Of a DNA stretch of 64,000 bases, positions 1,809 to 35,720 are shown one piece after another. Every line of letters starts with the position of its first letter. The stretch's first letter is position 1. The stretch spans positions 62,001 to 126,000 of the forward strand of contig JAFRPW010000013.1 of assembly GCA_017428945.1 (NCBI GenBank), in the 5' to 3' direction. The notes below the pieces were generated by a model. That model was not told the origin of the DNA. It did not search any database and saw only the letters and a list, made by a program, of their open reading frames with translations. The position numbers were made by a program, and so were the translations under genes. This stretch comes from Bacteroidales bacterium (GTDB lineage Bacteria; Bacteroidota; Bacteroidia; Bacteroidales; UBA932).

Positions 1809-2282
1809 ATGAAAGTTTACATCATCAACCCCGACAACGGAAAACCCGTTTCCATAGAGGAATGGAGCAAAGACGCCAACCCCACACGCGCCCGGATCCT
1901 GGCCATTGACACCGACGAAGGCCACACCATCCTTATGAGCAAGGAATATCTTCCGGACCGGTACACCTTCGAAGAGGCCCAGAAGGCCTGTGCCGAATTC
2001 ATCACGGCCGAGCTGGGTAACAGCGGCGTCGTCTTCCGCTGCCCTACCAGGAAGGAATGCATTGACATCTACGACGCCCGCTTCCAGGGCCTGGACGAAG
2101 CCGTGGAGCTCACCGGCGGGAACTTTGCCAAGATGGGCCGGTATCACTGGACCTGTGAGCGCGACGCGGACCCCCGTTGCAGCGCCTACTACGCGTGGTA
2201 CAGCTACGGCTACGGCGGCTTCGCCAGCAACAACAGCTTGTACGGCACGATCTCTGCCCTGCCGGTTGCGCTTTTGAAATAG
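1809..2282 (+). CDS. DGR target protein 2 (small C-type-lectin-like variable protein)
   Basis: A 157-residue protein. Its last 36 codons (2175-2282) carry a variable repeat that aligns without gaps to the template repeat at 31084-31203, so the protein is a second, remote target of the prophage DGR. The C-terminus ends ALPVALLK, matching ALPVALLD of target 1. Sequences such as FRCPTRKECIDIYD and a GRYHWT segment just before the repeat fit the C-type-lectin / formylglycine-enzyme-like fold usual for DGR targets; this is a family-level inference. There is no signal peptide or membrane segment. The gene stands alone between a strong terminator (1734-1767) and the hairpin at 2316, among early genes rather than tail genes. 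Its role (virion accessory or an intracellular binder) is unknown. Confidence 0.85.
   Translation: MKVYIINPDNGKPVSIEEWSKDANPTRARILAIDTDEGHTILMSKEYLPDRYTFEEAQKACAEFITAELGNSGVVFRCPTRKECIDIYDARFQGLDEAVELTGGNFAKMGRYHWTCERDADPRCSAYYAWYSYGYGGFASNNSLYGTISALPVALLK
2175..2270 (+). repeat. DGR variable repeat VR2
   Basis: A 96-bp, gap-free match in frame to TR 31108-31203. There are 15 differences: 14 are at TR adenines (8 A to G, 6 A to T) and one is a T to A (TR 31183). The last 18 bp (TCTGCCCTGCCGGTTGCG, 2253-2270) are identical in VR1, VR2 and TR and mark the initiation-of-mutagenic-homology end. Upstream of about 2173 the match to TR stops, so VR2 is shorter than VR1 at its 5' side. Confidence 0.93.
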
Positions 2283-3888: not shown

Positions 3889-6800
3889 ATGATTCCAGAT
3901 TCCGTAAAAGAACAGATCAAGGATGCCGACCTTGTCAGTATCCTGCAGAGCGAAGGGCTGGAACTCAAGCGCGAGGGCGCATACTACAAGTGCTGCTGCC
4001 CCTTCCATAACGAGAAGACGCCTTCCTTCGTGGTTCATCCCGGAAAGAACATAGCCACCTGCTTCGGAGAATCCCGCAGCTGGGACGCCATCGGTTTCGT
4101 GAGGGAGAAGTATAACATGGAGTATCCGGAGGCCATCGAATACCTGGCCAAGAAACTCCACATCCAATATGAGAAACGGGAGCCCACAGCCGAAGAGCGA
4201 GAGGCTCAGCATAAGAAGGAGCAGCTGATCCGCGTGAACGAGGCCGCCCAGGCCTGGTTCATAGACCAGTTCAAGAAAGCCCCTGCAGCCCGCGATTACT
4301 GCAAACAGCGCGGCTGGGACGAGAAAGTGATCCAGCTCTTCGGGATAGGTTTCGCGCCCAAGGCAGGCGGGATGCTCAAGGCCTTGATGGATCAGGGATG
4401 GAAACGTGAGCTCATAATGGAAGCCGGCCTGGCCGCCGTGAACGACGAAGGCCAGTACTACGACGCCTTCCGTGACCGCATCATCTTCCCCATCTACTCC
4501 AAGACGGGATATATAGCGGGCTTCACCGGCAGATATATGGGAGACCGGCAGGACGTGGCCAAGTACAAGAACACCAAGGAAACCACCCTCTTCAAGAAAG
4601 GGGAGATGCTCTTCGGCTGGTTCCAGGCCCGCCGATCCGCCAAGACCAACGGAGCCGTGGTCCTCTGCGAAGGAAATCCTGACGTGATCCGTCTCCACCA
4701 GATAGGAGTGAGCAACGCCATAGCTCCGATGGGAACAGCTCTAACGGATGCCAACATCGAATACCTGAAGGCTTACGCGGAGACGGTGATCATTGCAGGG
4801 GATATGGACAGCGCCGGCCGGGAAGCCGCCGCCAAGCAGGGTGAAGCTCTCCTGAAGGCGGGATTCAAGGTAAGGATAGTGGAATGGACAGGATATGACA
4901 AGGAGGCCAAGGAGGGCCCAAAGGATCCGGACGAGTTTTTTAAGCTGTATCCGGCCCGCTGGGAGGAAACCCTGGCCACCGACACGCAGGATTACATTCC
5001 CTGGATCGCCGCCCGCAAGATGGAAGGCAAGACGTCTTCCCAGTCGGAAGCGGCCATCGCCATCACGGAGGTCTGCCAGCTTATGGCCTGGTGCTCCGAT
5101 GAATCGGCCGTGGATATGTACCTGGACCAGTTCGTCAAGAAATACAAGTACAAGAAGGTCTGGGACCAGGAGTTCTATAAGGCAAAGAACGCCCGCCAGC
5201 GGCACACTGAGGACGTGGACGACAAGTCCCGCGAGATGCTGAAGGAATACGGCTTCTACGTCAAGGACAACTGCTACTACGGAGCTTCATCGTCCGGAAG
5301 TGATCGGCGCTGGTCCAACTTCATCCTGATACCGGTCCTGCACATCAAGGACGAGCGCAACGCCAAACGTATTTACAGGATCGTCAACCAGAAGCGTCAG
5401 GAATCCGTCATTAAGTTCTCCCAGAGCGAGCTGGTTTCCTTCGCGGACTTCAAGACGCGCACGGAGACCGCCGGTAACTACATCTGGGAGGCCACGCAGT
5501 CAGAACTTACCCAGCTCAAGAAATACCTGTACGACGACACGCCCAGCGCCGACGAGGTGAAGCAGCTGGGATGGCAGAAGCGCTGGAATATTTATGCCTG
5601 GGGAAACGGCTGCCTGGATGGCAACAACTTTGTGCCGGCCGACAAATACGGAATAGTCAGGATAGGTGAACACCGCTTCTACCTCCCAGGAATGGCCGCC
5701 GACACGGAGACCAACACGCAGGCATATATGCTGGACCGCAGGTTCACCTACGGCCAGACTAACGAGATTTCCTTGCGCGAATACGCCCAGAAGCTCATCA
5801 ACGTCTTCGGGGACAACGCCAAGGTCTCCCTCTGCTTCCTTGTAGCCACGCTGTTCAAGGATATCGTCACCGGCGTCACCACGCAGTTCCCCATCCTGAA
5901 CCTCTTCGGTCCCAAGGGCTCCGGTAAGTCGGAGCTGGGACACTCCCTGTCTTCCTTCTTTGTCACCGGTGCCTTCGACGCGCCCAATATCTCCGGATCC
6001 ACCAAGGCCGCACTGGCCGAGGCCGTGGCCGAGGTCTCCAACGCCATCGTCCACCTGGAAGAGTTCCGGCAGGACATTGACATTGACAGGCGCGAGTTCC
6101 TGAAGGCAATATGGGACTGCCAGGGCCGCTCCAAGATGGATATGGACAATAACAAGAAGCGTATCACCACGGCCGTGGACTCAGGCGTGATCATCAGTGG
6201 CCAGCAGATGCTCACACACCCCGATATCGCTCTGTTCAACCGCGTGGTCTTCCTTCCCTTCAGCAAGACCGCTTTCAGCGACGCCGAGCGCGTGGCCTTC
6301 GACGAACTGAAGCGCATAGAGCGCCGCGGCCTGTCCCATCTCACCGGCCAGATCCTCCTTAACCGCAACCGCTTCCAGGGAGGCTTCCGCATAGCCTGGG
6401 AACAGACGCAGGAAGATATCTTCCGGCGCGTCCGTTCCTACGGCATAGAAGCCCGCACCCTGCAGAACTGGTGCACGGTCCTGGCTGCGTACAAGACGCT
6501 GGAGAGTTACCTGGATCTCCCGTTTGATTACAAGGAGATGCTAGAGCTCTGCGCCCGGATGTGTATAGACCAGAACAGCAAGACTCAGCAGAACAACGAA
6601 CTGTCCGGCTTCTGGGAGACACTAGAGACACTAGTTGCATCCTCTAAGATCTGGATGAACGTGGACTACCGCATCAAGGACGGAGACAGGCCCATCAAGA
6701 CCAAGGAGGCCGGCAAGAACGGGAACGTATTTACCCCGCACCCCGACAGGCGTTACCTCTTCATCAACTTCAAGAGGGTTGCGGGCCTGTATCAGAGGGA

Positions 6801-7140
6801 AGGACGCGAGTCCCAGGGGAAGACGCTGCCGTCCGATACGCTCAAGTATTACCTGGAGCACTCTTCCGAGTTTGTAGGGACCTGCGAGAAGGTCAAGTTC
6901 AAGCTCATAGAGAACGTCACCGGCTACGTCAATCCCACAGCTCCGAAAACCAAGGTCACCACGGCCATGGTCTTCGATTATGACGCCCTGATGGATAACT
7001 ATGGAATCAGCCTGGATATCCTCACGGCTCCGGGATCCGACGACGATGAACCGGTCCCTACAGCTGCGCCCGTACCCGCCGCTCCGCCCATCGGAGCGAT
7101 GCCGGCCATTCCTGGAATGGAAGATGATATGCCGTGCTGA
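3889..7140 (+). CDS. Phage primase-helicase (DnaG-like CHC2 and TOPRIM plus P-loop ATPase)
   Basis: A 1083-residue replication protein. Residues ~5-90 form a CHC2 zinc-binding primase domain: CPFHNEKTPSF (C37, H40) then CFGE (C58), where the usual fourth ligand is replaced by Glu61. Residues ~110-250 resemble the DnaG catalytic N-part (RDRIIFPIY, GFTGRYM). TOPRIM motifs are LCEGNPD (E261) and GDMDSAG (D305, D307). A P-loop GPKGSGKS lies at 674-681, followed by an acidic HLEEFRQD motif, matching helicase-type domains fused to phage primases. The tail after ~1040 is Pro/Ala-rich and disordered. It would synthesise primers and unwind DNA at the phage fork. The stop overlaps the next start (TGATG). 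Confidence 0.88.
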   Translation: MIPDSVKEQIKDADLVSILQSEGLELKREGAYYKCCCPFHNEKTPSFVVHPGKNIATCFGESRSWDAIGFVREKYNMEYPEAIEYLAKKLHIQYEKREPTAEEREAQHKKEQLIRVNEAAQAWFIDQFKKAPAARDYCKQRGWDEKVIQLFGIGFAPKAGGMLKALMDQGWKRELIMEAGLAAVNDEGQYYDAFRDRIIFPIYSKTGYIAGFTGRYMGDRQDVAKYKNTKETTLFKKGEMLFGWFQARRSAKTNGAVVLCEGNPDVIRLHQIGVSNAIAPMGTALTDANIEYLKAYAETVIIAGDMDSAGREAAAKQGEALLKAGFKVRIVEWTGYDKEAKEGPKDPDEFFKLYPARWEETLATDTQDYIPWIAARKMEGKTSSQSEAAIAITEVCQLMAWCSDESAVDMYLDQFVKKYKYKKVWDQEFYKAKNARQRHTEDVDDKSREMLKEYGFYVKDNCYYGASSSGSDRRWSNFILIPVLHIKDERNAKRIYRIVNQKRQESVIKFSQSELVSFADFKTRTETAGNYIWEATQSELTQLKKYLYDDTPSADEVKQLGWQKRWNIYAWGNGCLDGNNFVPADKYGIVRIGEHRFYLPGMAADTETNTQAYMLDRRFTYGQTNEISLREYAQKLINVFGDNAKVSLCFLVATLFKDIVTGVTTQFPILNLFGPKGSGKSELGHSLSSFFVTGAFDAPNISGSTKAALAEAVAEVSNAIVHLEEFRQDIDIDRREFLKAIWDCQGRSKMDMDNNKKRITTAVDSGVIISGQQMLTHPDIALFNRVVFLPFSKTAFSDAERVAFDELKRIERRGLSHLTGQILLNRNRFQGGFRIAWEQTQEDIFRRVRSYGIEARTLQNWCTVLAAYKTLESYLDLPFDYKEMLELCARMCIDQNSKTQQNNELSGFWETLETLVASSKIWMNVDYRIKDGDRPIKTKEAGKNGNVFTPHPDRRYLFINFKRVAGLYQREGRESQGKTLPSDTLKYYLEHSSEFVGTCEKVKFKLIENVTGYVNPTAPKTKVTTAMVFDYDALMDNYGISLDILTAPGSDDDEPVPTAAPVPAAPPIGAMPAIPGMEDDMPC

Positions 7141-7451
7141 TGAACGTGCCGCCCTCATACCTTCTGAGGACGGAGGACCAGATAAACGCTTTCCGCAGTC
7201 ACTACGGCCCCGTAATAGAGAAGGCCGGCCCGGAAATCGCCAAATGGTTCAACGCCCTTCCGCTCTTCCAGTGGGTTCCTTACCAACCTCCCGGAGATGC
7301 AGCGATATATACGGGCCTTCTGTGCACCTTATATATAGAAGGTAAGATAAACATCACATTCAGCAAGGATATGGCCTATATCCAGCGCGGAGTCATCAAG
7401 GACGATGAATACCAGGACTGGGCCAGAGAACACTTCAGGAAGCCGCGTTAG
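7140..7451 (+). CDS. Hypothetical phage protein (103 aa) coupled to the primase
   Basis: An ORF read from ATG 7140, which overlaps the primase stop as TGATG; a GTG at 7134 would add two residues. It encodes a small globular-looking protein with several tryptophans and tyrosines and a basic C-terminus. There is no motif, signal peptide or membrane segment. It is the last gene of the replication operon, directly followed by a strong terminator. A replication accessory role is only suggested by position. Confidence 0.6.
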   Translation: MNVPPSYLLRTEDQINAFRSHYGPVIEKAGPEIAKWFNALPLFQWVPYQPPGDAAIYTGLLCTLYIEGKINITFSKDMAYIQRGVIKDDEYQDWAREHFRKPR

Positions 7452-9863: not shown

Positions 9864-11366
9864 ATGAAAATTGCACGTATTCTGTCCATCATGGCAGCTG
9901 CAATCGGACTCAAGGAACTGGCCGTGAAGGACGGTGCCCTGGAGCTCTCCGAGGAACAGCGCGCCAAACTGGAAGGCATCTATGGTGCCGAATTCATGAA
10001 GAAGGTTGATGCTGCTGTAGCGGACGATAAGAGCGCCGCCGAGCTACTCCAGTCCCTAGCCGACGAAAACAAGGCGAAGGATAAGACCATCGCCCAGCTT
10101 CAGGCCAGCATCGCCAAGCTCTCCGAAGAGCCCGAACCCAAGCCTCAGGCCCAGGCCGTCCAGGCCGCCGGCACCAAGGCCCCCAAGACGTTCCAGCTCA
10201 ATGCCGGCGCAGCTCACAACATCATTGCCGCCAAGGCTCTCTCCGAGGGACTGGGCGTAGCGATGGCAGCTGTGTCCACCGGTGCTACCGGGACCATCAA
10301 CACCTCCGACCTCGTCACTGAGTTTGGCGCTGTGATGCCCGCCAACACCCGCATCGAAATCCTGGCCAAGAGGATCTACAACGGCTTCGAGGACTCCAAG
10401 TACTTCCGTAAGATCACGTCCAACACGAACTACAAGGCCACCTCCGCCCTGATGACTGAGGTCTCCCAGCAGTTCACTCCGGCGTGGACGCCTAAAGGCG
10501 GCGTGAAGTTCACCCCCCTTGAGATCGTCTACCGCCGTCACAAGATCAACGCCGAGTTTATCGCAGCCGACATCCTTGAGAGCTGGCTACAGTACCTGTA
10601 TGAGCAGGGTAAGACTCCGGCCGAGATGCCTATCATCAAGTACATCATCGAAAACCACCTGCTTCCCAAGGTGACCGACGACATCGTCCTCTCGATGATC
10701 GCCAAGGGTAAGTTCGTGGACCACAATGATGGCTCCGTCGAAGACGGTGACGAAGGCTCCGCCGCCGTTGACTCCATGGACGGTATCGAAACCATCCTGG
10801 TTGAAGGTAAGAAGACCACCGGCTGCAACATGAACTTCTTCAAGAACGCCGTGGACTACACCACCCTCACCGCCGCCCAGCTGCTCGCTTACGTGAACAG
10901 CTTCGTGGACGCCATCTCCCCGCTGTTCGCACGTATCTTCAACGTGTACTGCTCCCCTGAGTTCCTGACCGCTTACCAGCGTGCAGACTTTGAGGTCAAC
11001 GGCAAGTACACCGCTTCCGAGAACGACGGCAAGATCCGCTTCAGCCGCTTCAGCCTGGTTGCGCTCCAGTCTATGTACGGCTCCAAGATCATCTTCGCCA
11101 CTCCCGCGGAGAACATGGTGATGCTGGTTGACTACGCCAAGGCCGAGTCCTGCATCAACGACATCCAGGTCCAGAACTACAAGGTAAAGGTCTTCGGTGA
11201 GTACTCACTGTCCACCGGCTTCCTTGTGGCAGAGGCCGTCTACGCAGCCGTTCCGGACGACTACGAGCCCACCGTAGCCGACGATCCTATTGAAGCTTCC
11301 GACGCCTGGGAGCACGGTTCCTCCCCAAACTCTGGCGGGGAAGAGGGAAATGGAGATCACCTGTAG
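9864..11366 (+). CDS. Major capsid protein with N-terminal scaffold-like region
   Basis: A 500-residue protein. Residues 1-110 are helical, charged and rich in Ala, Glu and Lys with a Pro/Ala linker (EPEPKPQAQAVQA), as expected of a scaffold or delta domain removed by the protease encoded just upstream. Residues ~115-480 look like an HK97-type shell protein: an N-terminal arm, a long central domain with a loop rich in Asp/Gly, and a C-terminal segment. The codon use is strongly biased towards preferred codons, consistent with high expression. The gene lies 35 bp after the protease. The assignment rests on context, size and composition. Confidence 0.8.
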   Translation: MKIARILSIMAAAIGLKELAVKDGALELSEEQRAKLEGIYGAEFMKKVDAAVADDKSAAELLQSLADENKAKDKTIAQLQASIAKLSEEPEPKPQAQAVQAAGTKAPKTFQLNAGAAHNIIAAKALSEGLGVAMAAVSTGATGTINTSDLVTEFGAVMPANTRIEILAKRIYNGFEDSKYFRKITSNTNYKATSALMTEVSQQFTPAWTPKGGVKFTPLEIVYRRHKINAEFIAADILESWLQYLYEQGKTPAEMPIIKYIIENHLLPKVTDDIVLSMIAKGKFVDHNDGSVEDGDEGSAAVDSMDGIETILVEGKKTTGCNMNFFKNAVDYTTLTAAQLLAYVNSFVDAISPLFARIFNVYCSPEFLTAYQRADFEVNGKYTASENDGKIRFSRFSLVALQSMYGSKIIFATPAENMVMLVDYAKAESCINDIQVQNYKVKVFGEYSLSTGFLVAEAVYAAVPDDYEPTVADDPIEASDAWEHGSSPNSGGEEGNGDHL

Positions 11367-11389
11367 ACTGGAACCACATTGACTAATCG

Positions 11390-11415
11390 GGGCCGAACCT
11401 CTTCCCGGCCCCTTA
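11390..11415 (+). terminator. Attenuating hairpin after the capsid gene
   Basis: GGGGCCG (11390-11396) pairs with CGGCCCC (11407-11413), with a 10-nt loop and only TTA after it. It is probably a partial terminator or mRNA 3' stabiliser for the capsid transcript, since the following gene starts 16 bp later with no promoter seen. Confidence 0.5.
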
Positions 11416-11431
11416 AAAACCAGAAAAGATT

Positions 11432-11974
11432 ATGTCATACACTCAAGTATCCATCCCTAAGACACCCGGCGGCGGAGCTGCCGTGGCAAAGAAAGACCGC
11501 ATCAGCATCTTTGACGTGGACACCGTAGCCACCGACGTAACGCGTGACTTCGGCAACACCACCACTGCCGGTCCGCTCACCCTGGACACCGGCGCAAAGG
11601 GTATCACCATCCAGGTATCCCGCGCCTCCGTAGCCTGTGGCTATGAGCAGTCCGGAGACGTTGACGCAAAGGTCTTCGCAGACAAGGTGGAGTTTGACTA
11701 TCCCGGTGACTCCGTGGCGCTGAACAACTTCATTGAGGCTTATGCCAACAAGGGAGTTATCATCATCGTGGAGAGCTGCGACGGTCCCACCAAGCTCTAC
11801 GGCCGTAAGTGCAATCCTATGTTCCTCCAGGCCGAACCCACCGACAGTAAGGACGGTCTCCGTACCCACCTTACCTTCAACCAGGAAATGGGTGACGCTT
11901 TCGTACCCCGCGTCTACACCGGTGCAATTCCGGAAGTGGCAGCGGACGCATCCGTAAGCGCCGGCGCTGAGTAA
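11432..11974 (+). CDS. Virion protein, paralogue of the protein at 27477
   Basis: A 180-residue protein starting SYTQVSIPKTPGGGAAV. It is a clear paralogue of the protein encoded at 27477 (SIPKSPGAGAAV, then CGYEQSGDVDAKVFADK and VIIIV-SCDG-TK-YGR-CNP in both). The genes are 68/70 identical at DNA level over 11636-11705 and 27681-27750, so duplication or gene conversion is recent. The beta-rich sequence and position after the capsid gene suggest a structural protein (decoration, neck or tail-tube type). The stop overlaps the next ATG by one base (TAATG). Confidence 0.7.
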   Translation: MSYTQVSIPKTPGGGAAVAKKDRISIFDVDTVATDVTRDFGNTTTAGPLTLDTGAKGITIQVSRASVACGYEQSGDVDAKVFADKVEFDYPGDSVALNNFIEAYANKGVIIIVESCDGPTKLYGRKCNPMFLQAEPTDSKDGLRTHLTFNQEMGDAFVPRVYTGAIPEVAADASVSAGAE

Positions 11975-12558: not shown

Positions 12559-13237
12559 TGTAACCCGCTGGCTGTATGACGGAGCCGAGGTCCGTGAAGG
12601 GCTTCGGCTTTTGTCACTATATGCACCCAATCCATACCTGGAGCGTATAGTAACAGCCAACCCGGGACTATATGGAAAGTTCCTGAAGAAAGCCATGGAG
12701 CCCTATGCGGATTCCATCCAGGCACAGGCCCCGCTGCAGGCGCAGGCCCCATCCGGATACCGCTTCCGCGAAGAATGGCCATTCCTGGCCGAACCGGACT
12801 GCCCGATGGAACTGAAGATCCTTGCCAACGACAAAATCACCGCCTACCACAAGACGCTGGAACTGCACCAGAAACTCTTTTCCTGCACCACCCTGGAAGA
12901 CTGTTTTGACACCGCAAAAAATCTTCTGAAAAATTTCCAGCAAAACCGGCTAATCACAGCCGAATTTACGTTTTACCGGGAAAGCGGGAAAGTGCTGGGA
13001 AAACACCCTGTTTTCCAACTTACCAAGCAGTTTGACGGATACCGCAAAATGAGCGTCGTAGCCCTGGTCAGGGAGCGGGAAAACCTCAAGGGCGCCATCT
13101 GGCGCGCAGAGTCGGAGATACGCCGCGGGGACCGTCCTCACCTCAAGGAAAGCCGCCTGGAAAGAATCGCCCAGAAGCGTCAGCAGCTGGAAGTGGTGGA
13201 AAGGATGATCCAGGAATCTGATAAACCGGCCAAATAA
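12551..13237 (+). CDS. Hypothetical head-module protein (228 aa)
   Basis: A 228-residue protein, mostly helical, with a Gln/Ala/Pro stretch around residues 57-67 (QAQAPLQAQAPSG) and a basic, coiled C-terminal region (residues ~175-225). It overlaps its neighbours at both ends (8 bp upstream, 1 bp downstream), typical of a tightly coupled phage operon. No motif is recognised. It lies between virion genes and the PLD-like gene. Confidence 0.6.
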   Translation: MNDVTRWLYDGAEVREGLRLLSLYAPNPYLERIVTANPGLYGKFLKKAMEPYADSIQAQAPLQAQAPSGYRFREEWPFLAEPDCPMELKILANDKITAYHKTLELHQKLFSCTTLEDCFDTAKNLLKNFQQNRLITAEFTFYRESGKVLGKHPVFQLTKQFDGYRKMSVVALVRERENLKGAIWRAESEIRRGDRPHLKESRLERIAQKRQQLEVVERMIQESDKPAK

Positions 13238-27476: not shown

Positions 27477-28061
27477 ATGACATACACAAGAGCATCCATA
27501 CCAAAATCCCCAGGCGCCGGCGCGGCCGTCCCACGGAGCGACAGAGTCTATATCTTTGACGTTCTGGACGTACTGACCGACATAGTCCGCGTCCTGGGTG
27601 AGACGGATTCCATCGGAAACCTGGTCCTCAAGGAAGGATACAAGGGTATCTCCATCCAGGTAACTCGTTCATCCATCAGCTGTGGCTATGAGCAGTCCGG
27701 AGACGTTGACGCGAAGGTCTTCGCAGACAAGGTGGAGTTTGACTACCCCGGCGACACCGTGGCCCTGGAGAATTTTGTAGAGGCCTTTGCCAATAAAGGC
27801 GTCATCATCATCGTCCAGAGCTGTGACGGAGCCACCAAGATCTACGGCCGCGAATGCAATCCGCTGGTCCTCACCCCAGAGCACACGGACAGCAAGGAAG
27901 GCCTCCGCTCCCACCTGGCTTTTGCTCAGGAAGTGGGAGACCTCTACGTCCCGCGCGTATATAACGGAACCATCCCCCCCATCGCAGACGATGACGGGTC
28001 CAGAGTCTACTGGCTCAACAGCACCATCTGGGATGAAGACGAAGAGTGGTTCAGCGAATAA
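27477..28061 (+). CDS. Virion protein, paralogue of the protein at 11432
   Basis: A 194-residue protein. Residues 1-170 align throughout with the 180-residue protein at 11432, including a nearly identical central block (CGYEQSGDVDAKVFADKVEF). The C-terminus differs: it ends with an acidic, Trp-rich tail (IWDEDEEWFSE), which may dock to a different partner. The copies lie in the head and tail-tip modules respectively, which suggests one fold used as two ring or tube components. Function is inferred from context. Confidence 0.7.
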   Translation: MTYTRASIPKSPGAGAAVPRSDRVYIFDVLDVLTDIVRVLGETDSIGNLVLKEGYKGISIQVTRSSISCGYEQSGDVDAKVFADKVEFDYPGDTVALENFVEAFANKGVIIIVQSCDGATKIYGRECNPLVLTPEHTDSKEGLRSHLAFAQEVGDLYVPRVYNGTIPPIADDDGSRVYWLNSTIWDEDEEWFSE

Positions 28062-29108: not shown

Positions 29109-30491
29109 ATGATTAAATATTACGACACAGAGGCTGCATACGCAGCCGACGCCAAGAGCCCTTTCGAATCACAGGTCTCCCTGATCGGCGCAAGCAACGA
29201 CGTCAAGTTTGACGGCTGCAATGTCATCGTGGGCGCCAAGTCCGCGAAGACCGGCTCCATCGTAGTGCTGGACGGCAACTCCGCCCTGCATTTCGTGGCC
29301 GTGGACACCTTCTCTTCCACCTCCTTCATGTCCAATTACACCATCGTCGGTGTAGTGGCCGTCGGCGTGGATCATCCGGACTTCCGCGGTAAGCTGGTCA
29401 TCCTTCACAAGAACAACACCAGCAAACAGTGGAGCGCCATCTACTCCTTCAAGCTCACCGGCTACACCCTGGACGGAACCGAGCGCACCGGCACTCTCAC
29501 TGTCCGTGACTCCAGCAACTGGGGAACCGGCGTTGACTATGTCATCACCTACAACGCTTCCACCGTCGAGGACTTCGTGAGCCAGCTGAACACCTACTTC
29601 AAGGCCAATGCTCCCTTCACCACCCAGAACTGGCGCGCGGATGCCGATGAAAACGACGTGGTCACTCTGTCCTTCCTGTATCAGGATTACCGTCAGGCCT
29701 CCAACTCCGCCAAGAGCGGCTTTGCCCTGGAAGCCAACCTCCTTCCCGATATCAAGGCCAGCAGCGATATGTACCGTATGAACGGCCAGCGTTCCGGAGA
29801 AGGAACTATCACCAACTGGGACCGCGCCATTGCTTATTTCCGTAATGACAACAGCTCCACCACCTACAACCCTGCTTCCGATGTAACCAGCCCCAAGATG
29901 AGTTATCCCATCTGCCTGCCAGGTTATCTTGGAACCAGCCAGTACCAGGACGACCATTGCGCGACTCTCCGTGCCATCTACGGTGAAGGTGAAGAAGGCT
30001 GGCTCAAGTTCATGGCATCCTTCCTGCCGGTACGTCCCACCAGCTACGGTCCCGTGGGTAATAAGGAGTACTATGGTGACAGCTTCAAGAACACCTACCT
30101 GATGGCAGGCAAGAAGTTCACCAAGCAGGACGACAGCGAGATCGTGGCTTTCCCCGCCGCCGACTACTGCGCCTCCGTGGTTTACAACCACGAGCTCCTG
30201 AAGAAAGGCAAGTGGGCCCTTCCGGACATGGACACCCTCTTCTCCATCATGAAGACCATCAAGTACGGAACGGATCCCAGCCGCGATGCAGATCCCGTCA
30301 ACCGCGCCCTGAACGCTATCGGCGGAAACGCTGTTTCCAACGGCTCCTACGTTTGGTCCGCTTCCCGTTACGGCGCCAACGGCGCGTGGTGCAGCGGCGG
30401 CAACTTCGGCTACGCCTACAACTACAGCTTGTACAGCTCGTTCTCTGCCCTGCCGGTTGCGCTTTTGGACATCCGCGACAGCGAACTCTAA
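29109..30491 (+). CDS. DGR target protein 1 (tail-tip receptor-binding protein with variable C-terminus)
   Basis: A 460-residue protein. The first ~220 residues are beta-rich and fibre-like. The C-terminal ~200 residues form a C-type-lectin / FGE-like domain (conserved PAADYCASVV, KWALPDMDTLF, then VWSASRYGANGAW). VR1 occupies codons 412-451 (30342-30461) and the protein ends ALPVALLDIRDSEL. It lies in the tail-tip module, as in Bordetella phage Mtd, so VR1 diversity most likely changes receptor binding at the host surface. Residues coded by VR adenines are mainly Tyr, Gly, Ser, Phe and Asn, suited to binding. The DGR accessory and RT genes follow directly. Confidence 0.92.
   Translation: MIKYYDTEAAYAADAKSPFESQVSLIGASNDVKFDGCNVIVGAKSAKTGSIVVLDGNSALHFVAVDTFSSTSFMSNYTIVGVVAVGVDHPDFRGKLVILHKNNTSKQWSAIYSFKLTGYTLDGTERTGTLTVRDSSNWGTGVDYVITYNASTVEDFVSQLNTYFKANAPFTTQNWRADADENDVVTLSFLYQDYRQASNSAKSGFALEANLLPDIKASSDMYRMNGQRSGEGTITNWDRAIAYFRNDNSSTTYNPASDVTSPKMSYPICLPGYLGTSQYQDDHCATLRAIYGEGEEGWLKFMASFLPVRPTSYGPVGNKEYYGDSFKNTYLMAGKKFTKQDDSEIVAFPAADYCASVVYNHELLKKGKWALPDMDTLFSIMKTIKYGTDPSRDADPVNRALNAIGGNAVSNGSYVWSASRYGANGAWCSGGNFGYAYNYSLYSSFSALPVALLDIRDSEL
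30342..30461 (+). repeat. DGR variable repeat VR1
   Basis: A 120-bp, gap-free match to TR (offset 742 bp). There are 16 differences, all at TR adenines (9 A to G, 7 A to T, no A to C). The other bases, including the 18-bp end TCTGCCCTGCCGGTTGCG (30444-30461), are identical. This pattern is diagnostic of adenine-specific mutagenic retrohoming. Confidence 0.97.
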
Positions 30492-30505: not shown

Positions 30506-30531
30506 GGCCGGGCCGCTCCGTCGGCCCGGCC
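30506..30531 (+). promoter_or_regulatory. GC-rich hairpin downstream of VR1 (candidate DGR target-recognition element)
   Basis: GGCCGGGCCG (30506-30515) pairs perfectly with CGGCCCGGCC (30522-30531) around CTCCGT. It begins 44 nt after VR1 and is not followed by a T-tract. The tip differs by one base from the hairpin 45 nt after VR2. The short AATCTTAATCTTT stretch before it also has a counterpart at VR2 (AATCCTTAATCCTTT). TR lacks such a hairpin. Confidence 0.8.
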
Positions 30532-30548: not shown

Positions 30549-31001
30549 ATGACGGCAGAGAGTGAATACTTCATTCCGAAGTTGCTCCGTGGAGAAAGGG
30601 ACGTACCCAGCATCCTGGTTGATGCGGACACGCTTCTGGAGCTATTGCTCCGTGCGGATCCGATGATGTCAGCCACCGACCGGCGGAGGTACAACGATCG
30701 CGCCATCCAGCAGATCCAGGAAGTCATAGCGCAGTTCACACTAGCCTACGATTTTCCAGATGACCGGCTGGAACACCTCAAAAAGATGTGGGCCGCGGTC
30801 ACCAATTTCATTCACACGATGAGGATCATTGGAATGACCAATGCCATCTGCATTCAACCCAAATACGAAAAGATGACGCCACACCAGATGAAGATTGAAC
30901 TGGTCAACAGGATAGCCAGTCTGGATGAAGGCGCCGAAAAATGGAGAAAGAGCGTACTCAAGGCACAACGGACGAAGGGCACGACTCCCACCAAAGGGTG
31001 A
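30549..31001 (+). CDS. avd: Avd-like DGR accessory protein
   Basis: A 150-residue, almost entirely helical, basic protein lying between VR1 and TR, the canonical place of the accessory variability determinant. Avd proteins are small four-helix bundles that form a pentamer, bind the reverse transcriptase and TR RNA, and are needed for mutagenic cDNA synthesis. The predicted helices and the MTPHQ-containing C-terminal segment fit that family, and the basic tail (KAQRTKGTTPTKG) fits RNA binding. It is slightly longer than typical Avd. Sequence similarity is judged by eye, so the family call depends partly on location. Confidence 0.75.
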   Translation: MTAESEYFIPKLLRGERDVPSILVDADTLLELLLRADPMMSATDRRRYNDRAIQQIQEVIAQFTLAYDFPDDRLEHLKKMWAAVTNFIHTMRIIGMTNAICIQPKYEKMTPHQMKIELVNRIASLDEGAEKWRKSVLKAQRTKGTTPTKG

Positions 31002-31083
31002 AAGGAGCGGGAATCCAGAGTAATAAAGGAGGCCCGGCTTGTGGAAACCCCGCCAGCTAAGAGTAAGGAATGTGGCCTCAGCA

Positions 31084-31203
31084 GGCTCCAACGTTTGGTC
31101 CGCTTCCCGTTACAACGCCAACAACGCGTGGTACAGCAACGGCAACAACGGCTACGCCAACAACAACAACTTGTACAACACGTACTCTGCCCTGCCGGTT
31201 GCG
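31084..31203 (+). repeat. DGR template repeat TR
   Basis: A 120-bp adenine-rich template with 12 AAC codons and 5 TAC codons in the reading frame shared with both targets. Mutating the A positions of AAC cannot create stop codons. It lies between avd (ends 31001) and the RT start (31219). The TR is in frame with the RT gene, with no stop between, so an ORF runs through it from about 31039. The 3' end is the shared 18-bp block; the bases after it (AATTATT) differ from those after VR1 and VR2 (CTTTTG), as expected for the TR version of the homology site. Confidence 0.96.
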
Positions 31204-31218
31204 AATTATTACAAGGAA

Positions 31219-32457
31219 ATGAAACTGGAAAACCTCATAAACGACTATCTGGGCTGCCGCTCCAACAAGCGCCGCAGCACAGACAGCGTCTATTTTGAGC
31301 TACACTGGGAGAGAGACCTGGCGCGGCTTGATAGAGACTTCCAGAACCGAGTCATTGTGCCTTTTTTGTACGCCTTCCTTGCACCGCGCCCCAGGCTCCG
31401 TGAGGTCATCGCCTGCTTAATGCAGATGAAGATCCTGCAGTATCATTTCGACGTACTGATCCGGCCGCTAGTGGAAGAGAGGCTTACAGACCGCACCTTC
31501 AACAACCGGATAGGCTACGGTCCTGATAAGGCCATGGAAAAGCTCATGGAGGACATCCGCATCGTTTCCCGTAATTACACGCGGGATTGCTACGTGATAA
31601 GCCGTGACATCCGGGCTTACTTCCCCTCCAGCGACCTTGACCGTTCATACCAGACCTACCGGAAACTCATAGAGGAAAATATCAAAGATCCCCAGGAACG
31701 GGATGACCTGTTATATATACTACAGCGCGTAAACTACGCAAACCCGCGCCTGAATGCCGTTCTGCGCTCCCCGCGTCATCTCTGGGGAGAAATTATAAAG
31801 AACGGCAAATCCGTCATCTTCAACTGTGATCCCTGGCACGGCGCGTGCCTGGGTAATCAGTTCTGGCAGGTGGAGAAAAACTTCGACCTGAATGACTTTG
31901 ACCATTTCCAGGTGGATACCTGCGGACTTCATTACATCCGTTTCGTGGATGATATGCGCTGGGTGGTGGAGAACAAACGCGCCGGCCTGGCCCACGTGGC
32001 TCAATCGGAGAAGATACTTAAAGAGCAGTACGGATATGAGATGCATCCGCGTAAGCGCAGCTGCCAGCACTTCTCCAAAGGTGGTGAATTCATAGGAACC
32101 TGGTACAAGTTTGACAGGATCTATGTCGGAAACCGCGTGGTGCGTCACGCAGAAGAGACCATTGCTAAATGGAACCGCCTGGCCTCTGAGAACGCCGTGG
32201 ATCACTTCACCGCCTCAATCAATTCCTACTTCGGGATGATGAAGCACAAGAACGCCTACGGGATAATCCGGAACCTGGTGGACCGCGTCTCTCCCAAGTG
32301 GAAACAATACTGTGAATTCAACGACGCCCGCCGCTGCTTTGAAGCGAAGCCGGGCTATCGCCATAACGAAATCCTTGAACGTAAATACCTATTTAAACTC
32401 AACACAAATTATGGGAAAAAGAGCACAACTCAACACCCTGGAGTCCAGGCAGCTTGA
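31219..32457 (+). CDS. DGR reverse transcriptase
   Basis: Read from ATG 31219, preceded by AAGGA, as a 412-residue protein. The frame extends upstream through TR without ATG, so the longer form is not favoured. RT motifs: NNRIGYGPDKA (residues 95-105), catalytic DIRAYFPS (D130), LGNQFWQ (211-217) where most DGR enzymes have a GxxxSQ motif, and catalytic FVDD (242-245), followed by conserved HPRK and EFIGTWYKF segments. No maturase or RNase H domain is present, as expected for DGR enzymes. It copies TR RNA into adenine-mutagenised cDNA for transfer to VR1 and VR2. The Ser to Trp change in motif 4 is unusual. Confidence 0.93.
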   Translation: MKLENLINDYLGCRSNKRRSTDSVYFELHWERDLARLDRDFQNRVIVPFLYAFLAPRPRLREVIACLMQMKILQYHFDVLIRPLVEERLTDRTFNNRIGYGPDKAMEKLMEDIRIVSRNYTRDCYVISRDIRAYFPSSDLDRSYQTYRKLIEENIKDPQERDDLLYILQRVNYANPRLNAVLRSPRHLWGEIIKNGKSVIFNCDPWHGACLGNQFWQVEKNFDLNDFDHFQVDTCGLHYIRFVDDMRWVVENKRAGLAHVAQSEKILKEQYGYEMHPRKRSCQHFSKGGEFIGTWYKFDRIYVGNRVVRHAEETIAKWNRLASENAVDHFTASINSYFGMMKHKNAYGIIRNLVDRVSPKWKQYCEFNDARRCFEAKPGYRHNEILERKYLFKLNTNYGKKSTTQHPGVQAA

Positions 32458-34274: not shown

Positions 34275-34348
34275 AGGCCGGCGAAAGAACCCACACCCAA
34301 CTTCCCGAAAGGCGCCGGTGATAATGCTACCCAGTAGCCGGCCTTTTT
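34275..34348. terminator. Convergent terminator region between late genes and integrase
   Basis: AGGCCGGC (34275-34282) pairs with GCCGGCCT (34337-34344), followed by TTTTT (34344-34348) on the plus strand. The 54-nt loop also includes smaller stems. It lies where the rightward late genes meet the leftward integrase gene, whose 3' end overlaps it. Confidence 0.5.
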
Positions 34349-35511
34349 CCTGGAATGATATCAACGCCCTGCAGCTCCTTGTTGGCCGCAGGGCTTTTCC
34401 CTACATAGATGGCGGTCATGGCCACCGATGAGTGATCCGCCTGCTGCTGGACGAAGGACACCGGCACGCCGGAGCCCAGCATATTCGTGATGCCGGTGTC
34501 CTTCAGGGAATATAGTTGCAGCTCCAGGCCGAACCCACAGGCCGGGCGAACCACCCGGTTCCAGTAGTCCGTGAAACGTTTCTTGTCAGTGGCCATGGCG
34601 GCCGGCCGGAAGTCGGCGCCCGCCGCCGAATGATGGCCGAACAGGAAGAGCGACGGGCTCCCCAGACGGAGCCGCCGGAAGGCGGGCAGCGCCGCATCCG
34701 GGATGGTCCGCCAGCTCTCTTTGTCGTTTTTGGCGATATCGGCCCGGACGTGGACGGCCTGCTTCTCCAGGCAGACGTCCTCACACCGCAGCAGCGCAAT
34801 CTCTTTTGGCCGCATAAGGCAGCAATAGCATAGGAGGCACACTGCAAGGTATTCAGGGTTTTCCCGCTCCAGGAAAGAGAACAGGCGCGCCAGTTCCGCT
34901 TCCGTAAGCGCCCGGCGCGTCTTCTTCATGACACGTTTCGGCTTCCGGTGGATCTTGGAGAAGACGTTGGAGGGGATGTAGCCCTTTTCCACCATCCAGT
35001 CAAACAGCGTCAGCTGGAAGGAAAGGTAGTTGTTATAGGTCCGCGGGGATACGCCGGCCGCATCTTCCAGGTGGGCCATATAGCGCCTGGCCACGGTCTC
35101 CGTGATGACGCAAAGTGGAGAGCTCTCCGACAGGCCTTCCCCCCGGAGCCATTCACGGAAGACCTTCAGATAGGACTTGTAGGAGCGGAGGGATTCCGGC
35201 TCCATCTCCTTTTCCTTGACTCTCCAGTAGGATTCAAAGGCCTGGACAGCCGGCACGGTGGAACGCGGGCACGCGTTGGAAACGATGGGATTCCAGCCCA
35301 GGGAGAGCTTCTCCTGGATATCGGCCATGACGGCCTTGGCGGCTGCCAGTTTTTCCGCCGCTGTGTGGTACGAATTGACGCGTTTCCTGAACAGCTTGAA
35401 GCGTCCGGTCTCGGGATTCTTCACATAGAAGGATACATACCAGGACGTCCGCCCCTTATGGAGTTTCGGCGGCTTGTAATCAACGTAGATTTTTGGGAGA
35501 CTGAGAAACAT
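34327..35511 (-). CDS. int: Tyrosine recombinase / phage integrase
   Basis: Read from ATG 35511 (394 aa); the frame extends to a TTG at 35562. Residues ~1-80 are an arm-type DNA-binding region, ~85-190 a SAM-like core-binding domain, and ~195-394 the catalytic domain. Catalytic residues visible are Arg234 in LMRPKEIALLR, LYSLKDTG (the KHTG-type box of Bacteroidota phage integrases, here KDTG), QQADHSSV with His360, and Tyr369 in AMTAIYVG. It integrates and excises the phage, most likely at the adjacent tRNA-Pro gene. It is the only leftward prophage gene seen and converges on the late genes. The start codon follows an A9 run on its own strand (T9 at 35511-35519). Confidence 0.9.
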   Translation of the reverse strand: MFLSLPKIYVDYKPPKLHKGRTSWYVSFYVKNPETGRFKLFRKRVNSYHTAAEKLAAAKAVMADIQEKLSLGWNPIVSNACPRSTVPAVQAFESYWRVKEKEMEPESLRSYKSYLKVFREWLRGEGLSESSPLCVITETVARRYMAHLEDAAGVSPRTYNNYLSFQLTLFDWMVEKGYIPSNVFSKIHRKPKRVMKKTRRALTEAELARLFSFLERENPEYLAVCLLCYCCLMRPKEIALLRCEDVCLEKQAVHVRADIAKNDKESWRTIPDAALPAFRRLRLGSPSLFLFGHHSAAGADFRPAAMATDKKRFTDYWNRVVRPACGFGLELQLYSLKDTGITNMLGSGVPVSFVQQQADHSSVAMTAIYVGKSPAANKELQGVDIIPGKRPATG

Positions 35512-35523
35512 TTTTTTTTCTTT

Positions 35524-35560
35524 GGAAATTCCCTGCAGGATGTCATACAGGGAAATTTCC
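35524..35560 (-). promoter_or_regulatory. Inverted repeat upstream of the integrase start
   Basis: GGAAATTCCCTG (35524-35535) and CAGGGAAATTTCC (35548-35560) are inverted copies with one bulged A. The repeat lies 13 bp upstream of the integrase ATG. It may be an operator, an arm-type integrase site or an mRNA hairpin controlling translation. Confidence 0.5.
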
Positions 35561-35562
35561 AA

Positions 35563-35690
35563 GGAAAAATCTTGACTCGTTTTTGACGCGGCAAATCCGG
35601 GTAAATCCGCGTAACTATTTATTTTTGAACCACTTATGGCTCTTTGGTCGGGATGACTCGACTCGAACGAGCGACCCCTACGTCCCGAAC
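35563..35690. other. Candidate right attachment region (attR) at tRNA-Pro
   Basis: The integrase gene lies at the 3' side of tRNA-Pro, the usual arrangement when a phage integrates into the 3' half of a tRNA gene. The crossover is expected within or next to the tRNA 3' end (35645-35690). The matching left copy is outside the window, so the exact core cannot be fixed. Confidence 0.4.
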
Positions 35691-35720
35691 GTAGTGCGCT
35701 ACCAACTGCGCTACATCCCG
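35645..35720 (-). tRNA. tRNA-Pro (anticodon CGG)
   Basis: Reverse strand: 7-bp acceptor stem CGGGATG / CATCCCG, D-arm with GTAGCGCAG, anticodon stem CTACG with loop TTCGGGA (anticodon CGG), T-arm containing GTTCGAGTC, discriminator A and an encoded CCA (35645-35647). It is downstream of rpsT on the same strand and probably cotranscribed. It is the likely prophage integration target. Confidence 0.95.

Follow-up and report, generated by a model that had tools for sequence, protein, structure and literature searches.

A prophage with one DGR and two target genes

The window (the whole stretch of 64,000 nucleotides analyzed here) holds most of a ~37.9-kb prophage integrated at tRNA-Pro, a size that takes two 19-bp repeats as attL and attR, the copy on the attL side lying ~2,210 bases before window base 1. 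The features relevant to the analysis are listed below by window position and strand.

879-1385, + strand: endonuclease VII/HNH/Lar-like zinc-ribbon protein (phrog_1035, 1e-8; phrog_5558, 3.6e-6), second gene upstream of the VR2 gene
1734-1767, + strand: terminator-like hairpin and T-run preceding the VR2 gene; equalled in folding by 12 of 200 shuffles
1809-2282, + strand: remote DGR target gene, 157 aa, most likely stand-alone Lcl_C/C-type-lectin-like; ORF intact
2175-2270, + strand: VR2, variable repeat at the 3' end of the 157-aa gene
2316-2342, + strand: GC-rich hairpin following VR2, with 11 pairs interrupted by one bulge, a loop of 4 nt and no T-run
3889-7140, + strand: DnaG-type primase (CHC2, DNAG_N, Toprim; DNAG_N 7.4e-33), marking the replication region
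29109-30491, + strand: adjacent DGR target gene, 460 aa, carrying VR1, downstream of the tape-measure gene region
30366-30461, + strand: VR1, by its match to the TR
30506-30531, + strand: GC-rich hairpin after VR1; 10-bp stem, no T-run
30549-31001, + strand: 150-aa ORF where Avd (accessory variability determinant) usually lies, a placement by position only
31108-31203, + strand: template repeat (TR), by repeat comparison
31219-32457, + strand: DGR-type reverse transcriptase (RT; phrog_1423 Reverse transcriptase, 3.4e-28; RVT_1 5.4e-4, under the Pfam cut-off)
34327-35562, - strand: phage integrase (phrog_1, 3.4e-43), just inside the right prophage end
35643-35661, no strand: probable attR, 19-bp direct repeat at the 3' end of tRNA-Pro(cgg) 35645-35720

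The DGR spans 29.1-32.5 kb of the window and comprises the large tail-region VR1 target, the 150-aa ORF, the TR and the RT, which adjoins the TR. The RT ORF was listed from a TTG at 31039, and the ATG at 31219 was chosen as its start by reading the sequence; the 150-aa ORF gave neither a Pfam hit nor a significant PHROG hit. Over the interval between the VR2 gene and the DGR, the main phage ORFs share one strand. The distance of 28 kb that the first-pass annotation assigned to the second target holds as a linear prophage distance (28.9 kb), but it falls to about 9 kb on a circular phage genome, again with the 19-bp repeats as attL and attR. Elsewhere in the window, a tRNA-Leu was predicted at 11351-11452 (- strand), overlapping the end of ORF 9864-11366, which may be a false call, and phrog_19897 (function unknown) was found twice in the prophage, at 27477-28061 (7.7e-17) and 11432-11974 (3.4e-18).

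Template and variable repeats

The alignment of VR2 with the TR was confirmed as originally described, being gapless and identical at 81 of 96 positions, with 14 of the 15 mismatches at TR adenines (8 A>G, 6 A>T and one T>A; hypergeometric P = 4e-8). VR1 is likewise identical to the TR at 81 of 96 positions, and all 15 changes fall at adenines (P = 6e-10). The next-best match to the TR elsewhere in the window, on either strand, reached 47 of 96, and the maximum over 30 simple shuffles of the + strand was 46 of 96; a search of the 2.6-Mb assembly to which the window belongs returned only VR1, VR2 and the TR at E ≤ 0.001. By their coordinates, VR1 and VR2 share a codon frame, in which no adenine change turns any of the 32 TR codons into a stop, and the 18 adenine-bearing codons would in principle allow ~10^17 protein variants. 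After the TR homology, both VRs carry GCGCTTTTG and the TR carries GCGAATTATT, which is the arrangement of an IMH in the acceptors against an IMH* in the donor. We regard it as practically certain that VR2 is a DGR target.

Each VR is followed, at most about 50 nt downstream, by a GC-rich hairpin that stands out on folding, with z = -4.95 for the VR2 hairpin and z = -5.84 for the VR1 hairpin and 0 of 200 shuffles as good in both cases. In a simple-stem test, passed when at most 10 of 200 shuffles are as good, the VR2 hairpin fails (23 of 200), and across the 19 dual-target phages described below 12 VR2 and 13 VR1 hairpins pass. Because it has no T-run and resembles the hairpin after VR1, the hairpin at 2316-2342 looks less like a terminator than like the hairpin of a DGR target. 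Thus, of the initial picture of a gene alone between a strong terminator and a hairpin, the isolation in this window and the presence of the downstream hairpin stand, and the upstream terminator is only moderate by the shuffles listed above. Natural BPP-1 has one target, mtd, adjoining the RT. Its target site resembles those of the window in joining a VR with an IMH and a GC-rich hairpin, and, as reported, IMH plus hairpin moved to another gene elsewhere sufficed to aim the DGR, in replicating phage as well (PMC3240598), so that a remote target requires no new machinery.

The remote target as a C-type-lectin-like protein

The 157-aa protein of the window itself gave no Pfam and no PHROG match. 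Within the 15-member family described below, four members match Lcl_C (PF07603) at E ≤ 0.1, the best at 2.7e-5, the curated cut-off of 34.9 bits not being reached by the members with known bit scores. Comparison of the family profile with a profile of eight Lcl_C-type proteins gave an hhalign probability of 99.0 and E 2.8e-18 over 89 columns, and BLASTP paired the window protein at 2e-7 with L011, a protein that is itself Lcl_C at 3.4e-11, above the cut-off. Against solved structures, the Lcl_C-type profile found HbP1 (1.6e-9) and 4eps (0.0036), which we take to be the B. ovatus fimbrial tip protein of the comparison cited next. The authors of the Bacuni phages likened their targets to a B. 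ovatus fimbrial tip protein (PMC8143477). A sequence search of solved structures with A5 returned only HbP1, at E 0.1. A five-member profile searched in the same way returned only a PPR-repeat protein and flagellins, which we judged to be chance matches.

In the main family, only about 50 aa precede the Lcl_C-like part, compared with about 350 aa before the weak Lcl_C match (E 0.04) of the VR1 protein; no other domain was found in the 157-aa protein, and its VR is at the C-terminus. Its N-terminus is not signal-peptide-like, with a hydropathy of 0.30 against 2.5 for a signal-peptide-like control protein, while the relatives G003 and G002 score 2.0-2.3 in this crude N-terminal scan. The most likely identity of the 157-aa protein, from these sequence comparisons, is a minimal module of the C-type-lectin-like (Lcl_C-related) kind, preceded by about 50 residues.

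Relatives and survey of dual-target phages

The search for relatives of the 157-aa protein yielded 14 full-length homologs, which form a 15-member alignment with the window protein. The initial protein search found full-length homologs in three IMG/VR contigs and one genome contig, its fifth hit being the distant Lcl_C protein L011; searches of related genomes added G109 (200 genomes) and, by profile, G247 (398 genomes). A search with the RT led to 80 loci, and applying the family profile to 47 of the 80 RT-locus contigs gave eight full-length members and one partial member (G422). A second viral-contig scan with a 5-row alignment brought no additional members, and tblastn of the 157-aa protein against the phages collection gave no match at E ≤ 0.01 despite the analogous Bacuni target; the Bacuni phages were reached through RT similarity.

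For the TR/VR scan, 42 contigs were read whole and a TR near the RT was required. They comprised 31 of the 80 RT loci and 11 others, namely the window phage, G002, G003, G004, G122, G053, G109, three Bacuni phages and MT835523. A remote VR, defined as lying over 5 kb from the TR in the shorter of the linear and circular readings (prophage contigs excepted; circular distances assume that the contigs are circular), was found in its own ORF of 130-224 aa in 11 of the 31 RT-selected contigs and in 10 of the 11 others, seven of these ten (the window phage, G002, G003, G004, G122, G053 and G109) having been selected via such genes, so that only the 11 of 31 are free of this bias. The remaining 20 RT-selected contigs, some of them fragments, and MT835523 lack a remote VR housed in its own small ORF. 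The sole VR of G438 falls within an ORF of 1,871 aa, at a distance of about 9 kb if the contig is circular, and was not counted as a remote target; the scan gave no VR for G420. In G426, G430 and G434 the near VR matches the TR on the opposite strand, about 1.5 kb off across the RT; G427 and G431, merged in the scan output, probably have the same cassette layout.

Counting the Bacuni phages once, 19 distinct phages have two VRs on a single TR, one near and one remote, and in all 19 the remote VR lies more than 5 kb from both the TR and VR1. The proposal that one TR/RT pair serves two proteins in different modules is supported, and the arrangement recurs beyond the window. All 13 full-length family members on RT-bearing contigs, the window protein included, carry a VR that matches the TR of their own phage, and G247 is a member on a 4.2-kb contig for which the genome search gave no RT hit. 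The remote targets of G053, G122, G433, G437, G443 and Bacuni F1 are other small proteins. A large survey describes its approach as one that would not detect remote targets (PMC8144416), so targets of the distal kind have probably been undercounted; here 11 of the 31 RT-selected contigs had one.

Genomic neighborhood of the remote target

In 15 of the 19 dual-target phages, a replication, recombination or nuclease gene could be named near the remote target. In the window, the VR2 gene lies two genes after the endonuclease VII/HNH/Lar-like protein and 1.6 kb before the DnaG-type primase. The target of G003 sits directly between RecT and RecE-like genes, that of G004 is followed by a DNA polymerase as the next gene, and in G122 and G433 a DNA polymerase is at most four genes away, G433 also having a helicase-primase. 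Replication-initiation proteins are nearby in G002 and G432 and a helicase-primase in G411, the targets of G403 and G408 come right after endoVII/Lar-like proteins, and that of G053 adjoins a helicase-methyltransferase protein with RecE near. RecT is six ORFs upstream in G406 and an SbcC-like gene four ORFs downstream in G437. In G405 the target begins 19 nt after a DnaD-like helicase loader (replication initiation), with a DNA methyltransferase 3.7 kb on, and in Bacuni F1 DNA polymerase A is two genes upstream. The four phages without a named neighbor of the replication type are G443 (DNA methyltransferase and a regulator), G109 (transposase), and G424 and G407, where nothing was named. The transposase gene of G109 is at L030:13795-14727 (phrog_157, 5e-73).

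Comparison of 107 neighbor proteins with PHROGs gave 144 families, and the tally of the 25 commonest comprises DNA metabolism, Lar-like and methyltransferase families, one DNA-transposition family and one unnamed; none of these 25 is a tail family. The named neighbors are non-tail and the gene lies outside a tail module, which upholds by position the initial view that the 157-aa protein is not a tail gene.

The isolation of the gene in the window phage does not extend to the group. In 13 of 18 phages (G405, with its 19-nt gap, is outside the 18), an open frame of at least 60 codons, which need not be a gene, stops 1-30 nt before the remote target starts, and in Bacuni F1 the upstream gene overlaps the target by 14 nt in an operon-like manner. 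This spacing makes co-transcription with those genes likely, and we consider it quite probable that the remote target is expressed with the replication module. In G408 the target copy is on the opposite strand, so orientation seems not to matter. TAnnTTTG is a Bacteroidota-type promoter motif; it was absent within 220 nt upstream of the target in all 19 phages, which says little. Directly upstream of the target, tRNA-like sequences were seen in G411 (L210:1743-1835; Rfam tRNA 32.9 bits, over the cut-off, unlisted by ARAGORN) and in G004 (L026:3769-3866; a weak tRNA-Sec match, below the cut-off).

Diversification by the resident DGR

At non-A positions, VR2 agrees with the TR of its own phage at 91-96% in all 19 phages, against medians of 48-68% and best values of 58-94% for the TRs of other phages (the cases at 92-94% being the near-twins G403/G405), a contrast that is partly built in, since VR2 was detected via its own TR. 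A stronger form of the argument is that members recognized over their full length end in the framework of their own TR, as in the window protein (ALPVALL), G002 (QVGAVTLL) and G003 (TVRPVSAF).

Pairs of related phages show where the remote gene varies. Between G403 and G405, only 2 of 359 bases differ outside VR2 (one synonymous and one nonsynonymous codon), whereas 19 differ inside, 17 of them at TR adenines (one synonymous and 11 nonsynonymous codons). The remote genes of Bacuni F1 and F2 have no differences in 554 bases outside the VR and 16 inside, 15 at adenines, with identical TRs; that their remote VRs differ had already been reported (PMC8143477). G004 and G001 differ at 9 of 377 positions outside VR2 and at 15 of 79 inside, plus one codon indel. 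The first-pass annotation had named two findings that would speak against a working target, a VR2 fixed where VR1 varies and a decayed gene. The relatives bear out neither, the three pairs being far more divergent inside VR2 than outside and the ORF running through the VR in 19 of 19 phages. In Bacuni F1 and F4, however, the remote VR is identical although VR1 differs.

The two VRs agree in their bases at TR adenines in 275 of 569 comparisons against 262.4 expected from codon-class shuffles (16 phages; G406, G411 and G109 were left out because of gaps), and 79 of 1,000 class-preserving shuffles reach the observed value. A cruder control with all 19 phages gave an excess of 303 over 229.5, much of which disappears when codon class is kept. 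Selection of VR1 and VR2 for the same ligand is thus unsupported: agreement that does not exceed the codon-class expectation gives little indication of one common ligand.

Two acceptors on one template, with adenine-limited natural variation at the remote one, are what these comparisons show. By the known DGR mechanism, the RT would copy the TR transcript, making errors at adenines, and the resulting cDNA would replace VR1 or VR2, each independently of the other. With priming at the IMH and assistance from the hairpin, the two targets would thus diversify separately.

Movement of the target gene

G403 and G405 share the tail/DGR block (87-93%), a few short stretches and, in another place, an isolated 529-bp block of 96% identity (12663-13191 in G403 and 6701-7229 in G405, oriented contigs) that consists of one gene and its hairpin. 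This block extends from 3 bp upstream of the ATG to 31 bp downstream of the stop, where the hairpin lies, and the upstream flanks are unrelated (596 of 1,374 aligned bases equal). Judged by these alignments, the pair is the only strong evidence for sharing of gene and hairpin as a unit. The target gene is also the sole DNA that G002 shares with the window phage or with G004 (blastn E ≤ 1e-8), the RTs being 29-33% identical and the gene bodies about 61-63% at the protein level; DNA blocks that start at the ATG in such distant pairs may be ordinary gene-level conservation. Across 13 phages, body identity is correlated with RT identity (r = 0.56; 24 of 5,000 permutations as high), so the target gene frequently, though not invariably, moves along with its DGR. 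In G004 and G411 a shared stretch of 3.4 kb surrounds the gene, which there looks inherited in place.

Comparison with known systems

A close published parallel is found in the Bacuni phages F1, F2 and F4 of Bacteroides uniformis (MT635598, MT806186 and MT806185), whose genomes of ~40 kb carry a single TR/RT and two targets of the DUF1566 type, an adjacent and a distant one (PMC8143477). Their distant target lies downstream of DNA polymerase A, with a single gene in between, and is followed by a DNA methyltransferase gene. It differs from the window protein in its 224 aa, of which only the C-terminal ~60 residues align with the 157-aa family, and the RTs are about 29-31% identical. Quimbyvirus resembles the window phage in a second DGR target outside the structural module, with a C-type-lectin domain; this target adjoins methyltransferases and other conflict genes, and its authors suggest a role in conflict, although Quimby-like phages differ in a median size of 75 kb and a target on the opposite strand (PMC8008677; compared by description). 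A second VR distal from the RT is likewise described for four inducible gut prophage species (Nature 2025), near counter-defense genes such as a DNA methyltransferase (PMC12629997; likewise compared by description). Tentaclins are phage DGR systems with two C-type-lectin targets as well, but in the account given both targets lie in the DGR cassette, the lectin is N-terminal and followed by Ig domains, and the VR is near the 5' end (PMC10743442), a layout from which the 157-aa protein departs in its C-terminal VR and its lack of any other domain.

Distal second targets are therefore already published (Bacuni, Quimbyvirus and the four inducible prophage species), in Quimbyvirus with a proposed conflict role. 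Three features look new, namely the family itself, the position that its genes usually occupy and the one clear instance in which a gene and its hairpin are shared as an isolated block of 529 bp; in the literature covered, mainly open-access journal articles, no passage was found that describes the 157-aa family or the sharing of a target gene as a unit.

Possible roles of the remote target

The role that we tentatively favor, with slightly less than even confidence, is that of a binder in phage-host conflict inside the cell. The 157-aa product would be a stand-alone binder of the C-type-lectin-like type, cytosolic and produced together with the replication genes, and its hypervariable face would bind a variable host factor in the cell, most likely a defense or host-takeover target, while VR1 would meanwhile vary receptor binding on the virion. 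Intracellular binding is suggested by the gene's location together with the want of a clear secretion signal or attachment domain, by neighbors that include restriction-alleviation-like and methyltransferase genes, and by the published observation that F1 and F2 share a host despite different remote VRs. On the other side, position does not prove the timing of expression, the neighbors vary between phages, and no defense partner was found. To our knowledge, the DGR targets with a tested role are surface binders.

The main rival, which we hold to be somewhat unlikely, is that the 157-aa protein serves the virion or adsorption as an accessory, a second small adhesin whose gene merely lies in the replication region, both targets binding surface ligands. 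The classical phage DGR target is described as a receptor binder (PMC10743442, PMC8144416), and the Bacuni authors, as reported, call both targets presumably adhesive and fimbrial-tip-like (PMC8143477). VR1 and VR2 also have the same residue spectrum (mostly Tyr, Gly, Asn and Ser), and their agreement within a phage is slightly above that across phages (0.433 vs 0.388-0.411). Yet an adhesin fits poorly with the more than 5 kb that separate the remote VR from TR and VR1 in every one of the 19 phages and with non-tail named neighbors, with a protein that has about 50 aa before its Lcl_C-like part where the VR1 protein has about 350, and with the report that F1 and F2 infect the same host while differing in the remote VR (PMC8143477).

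Action at the envelope of the infected or lysogenic cell, in superinfection exclusion or lysogenic conversion and not as a virion part, appears improbable: the gene stands apart between hairpins in the window prophage and could be expressed in the lysogen, but the window protein has no signal-peptide-like start, TAnnTTTG is absent within 220 nt upstream in the 19 phages, and the spacing in other phages is operon-like. Still less probable is that VR2 is a by-product, either a stray or duplicated VR acting as a recombination reservoir for VR1 or a cassette persisting without benefit. VR1, VR2 and the TR can recombine in principle, and gene and hairpin can be shared as a unit; against this, the body outside the VR is conserved in the 15 aligned members, in all 19 phages the ORF continues through the VR, and family members occur together with RTs that are no more than about 30% identical. 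An artefact, whether chance similarity or a VR1/VR2 assembly chimaera, is scarcely credible given the adenine bias (P = 4e-8), gene-body homologs in independent contigs and published isolates with the same layout, even if repeats can mislead assemblies.

Implications

The reading of the remote protein as an intracellular binder can be carried further, to a 157-aa family that is a self-contained mobile DGR-target cassette (body, VR with IMH, and hairpin), passed between the replication modules of dissimilar phages apart from the DGR, re-templated by the resident DGR, and giving a hypervariable cytosolic binder against host defenses. We consider this extended form unlikely; if true, the mobile cassette would be a phage counterpart of diversified immune receptors. 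Isolates with the same layout (Bacuni F1, F2 and F4) make the ligand of a non-tail DGR target directly testable. The best-known phage DGR targets diversify adsorption, and a family of small non-tail, DGR-written proteins, encoded as a rule near replication genes, would mean that some phages diversify another interaction at a cost.
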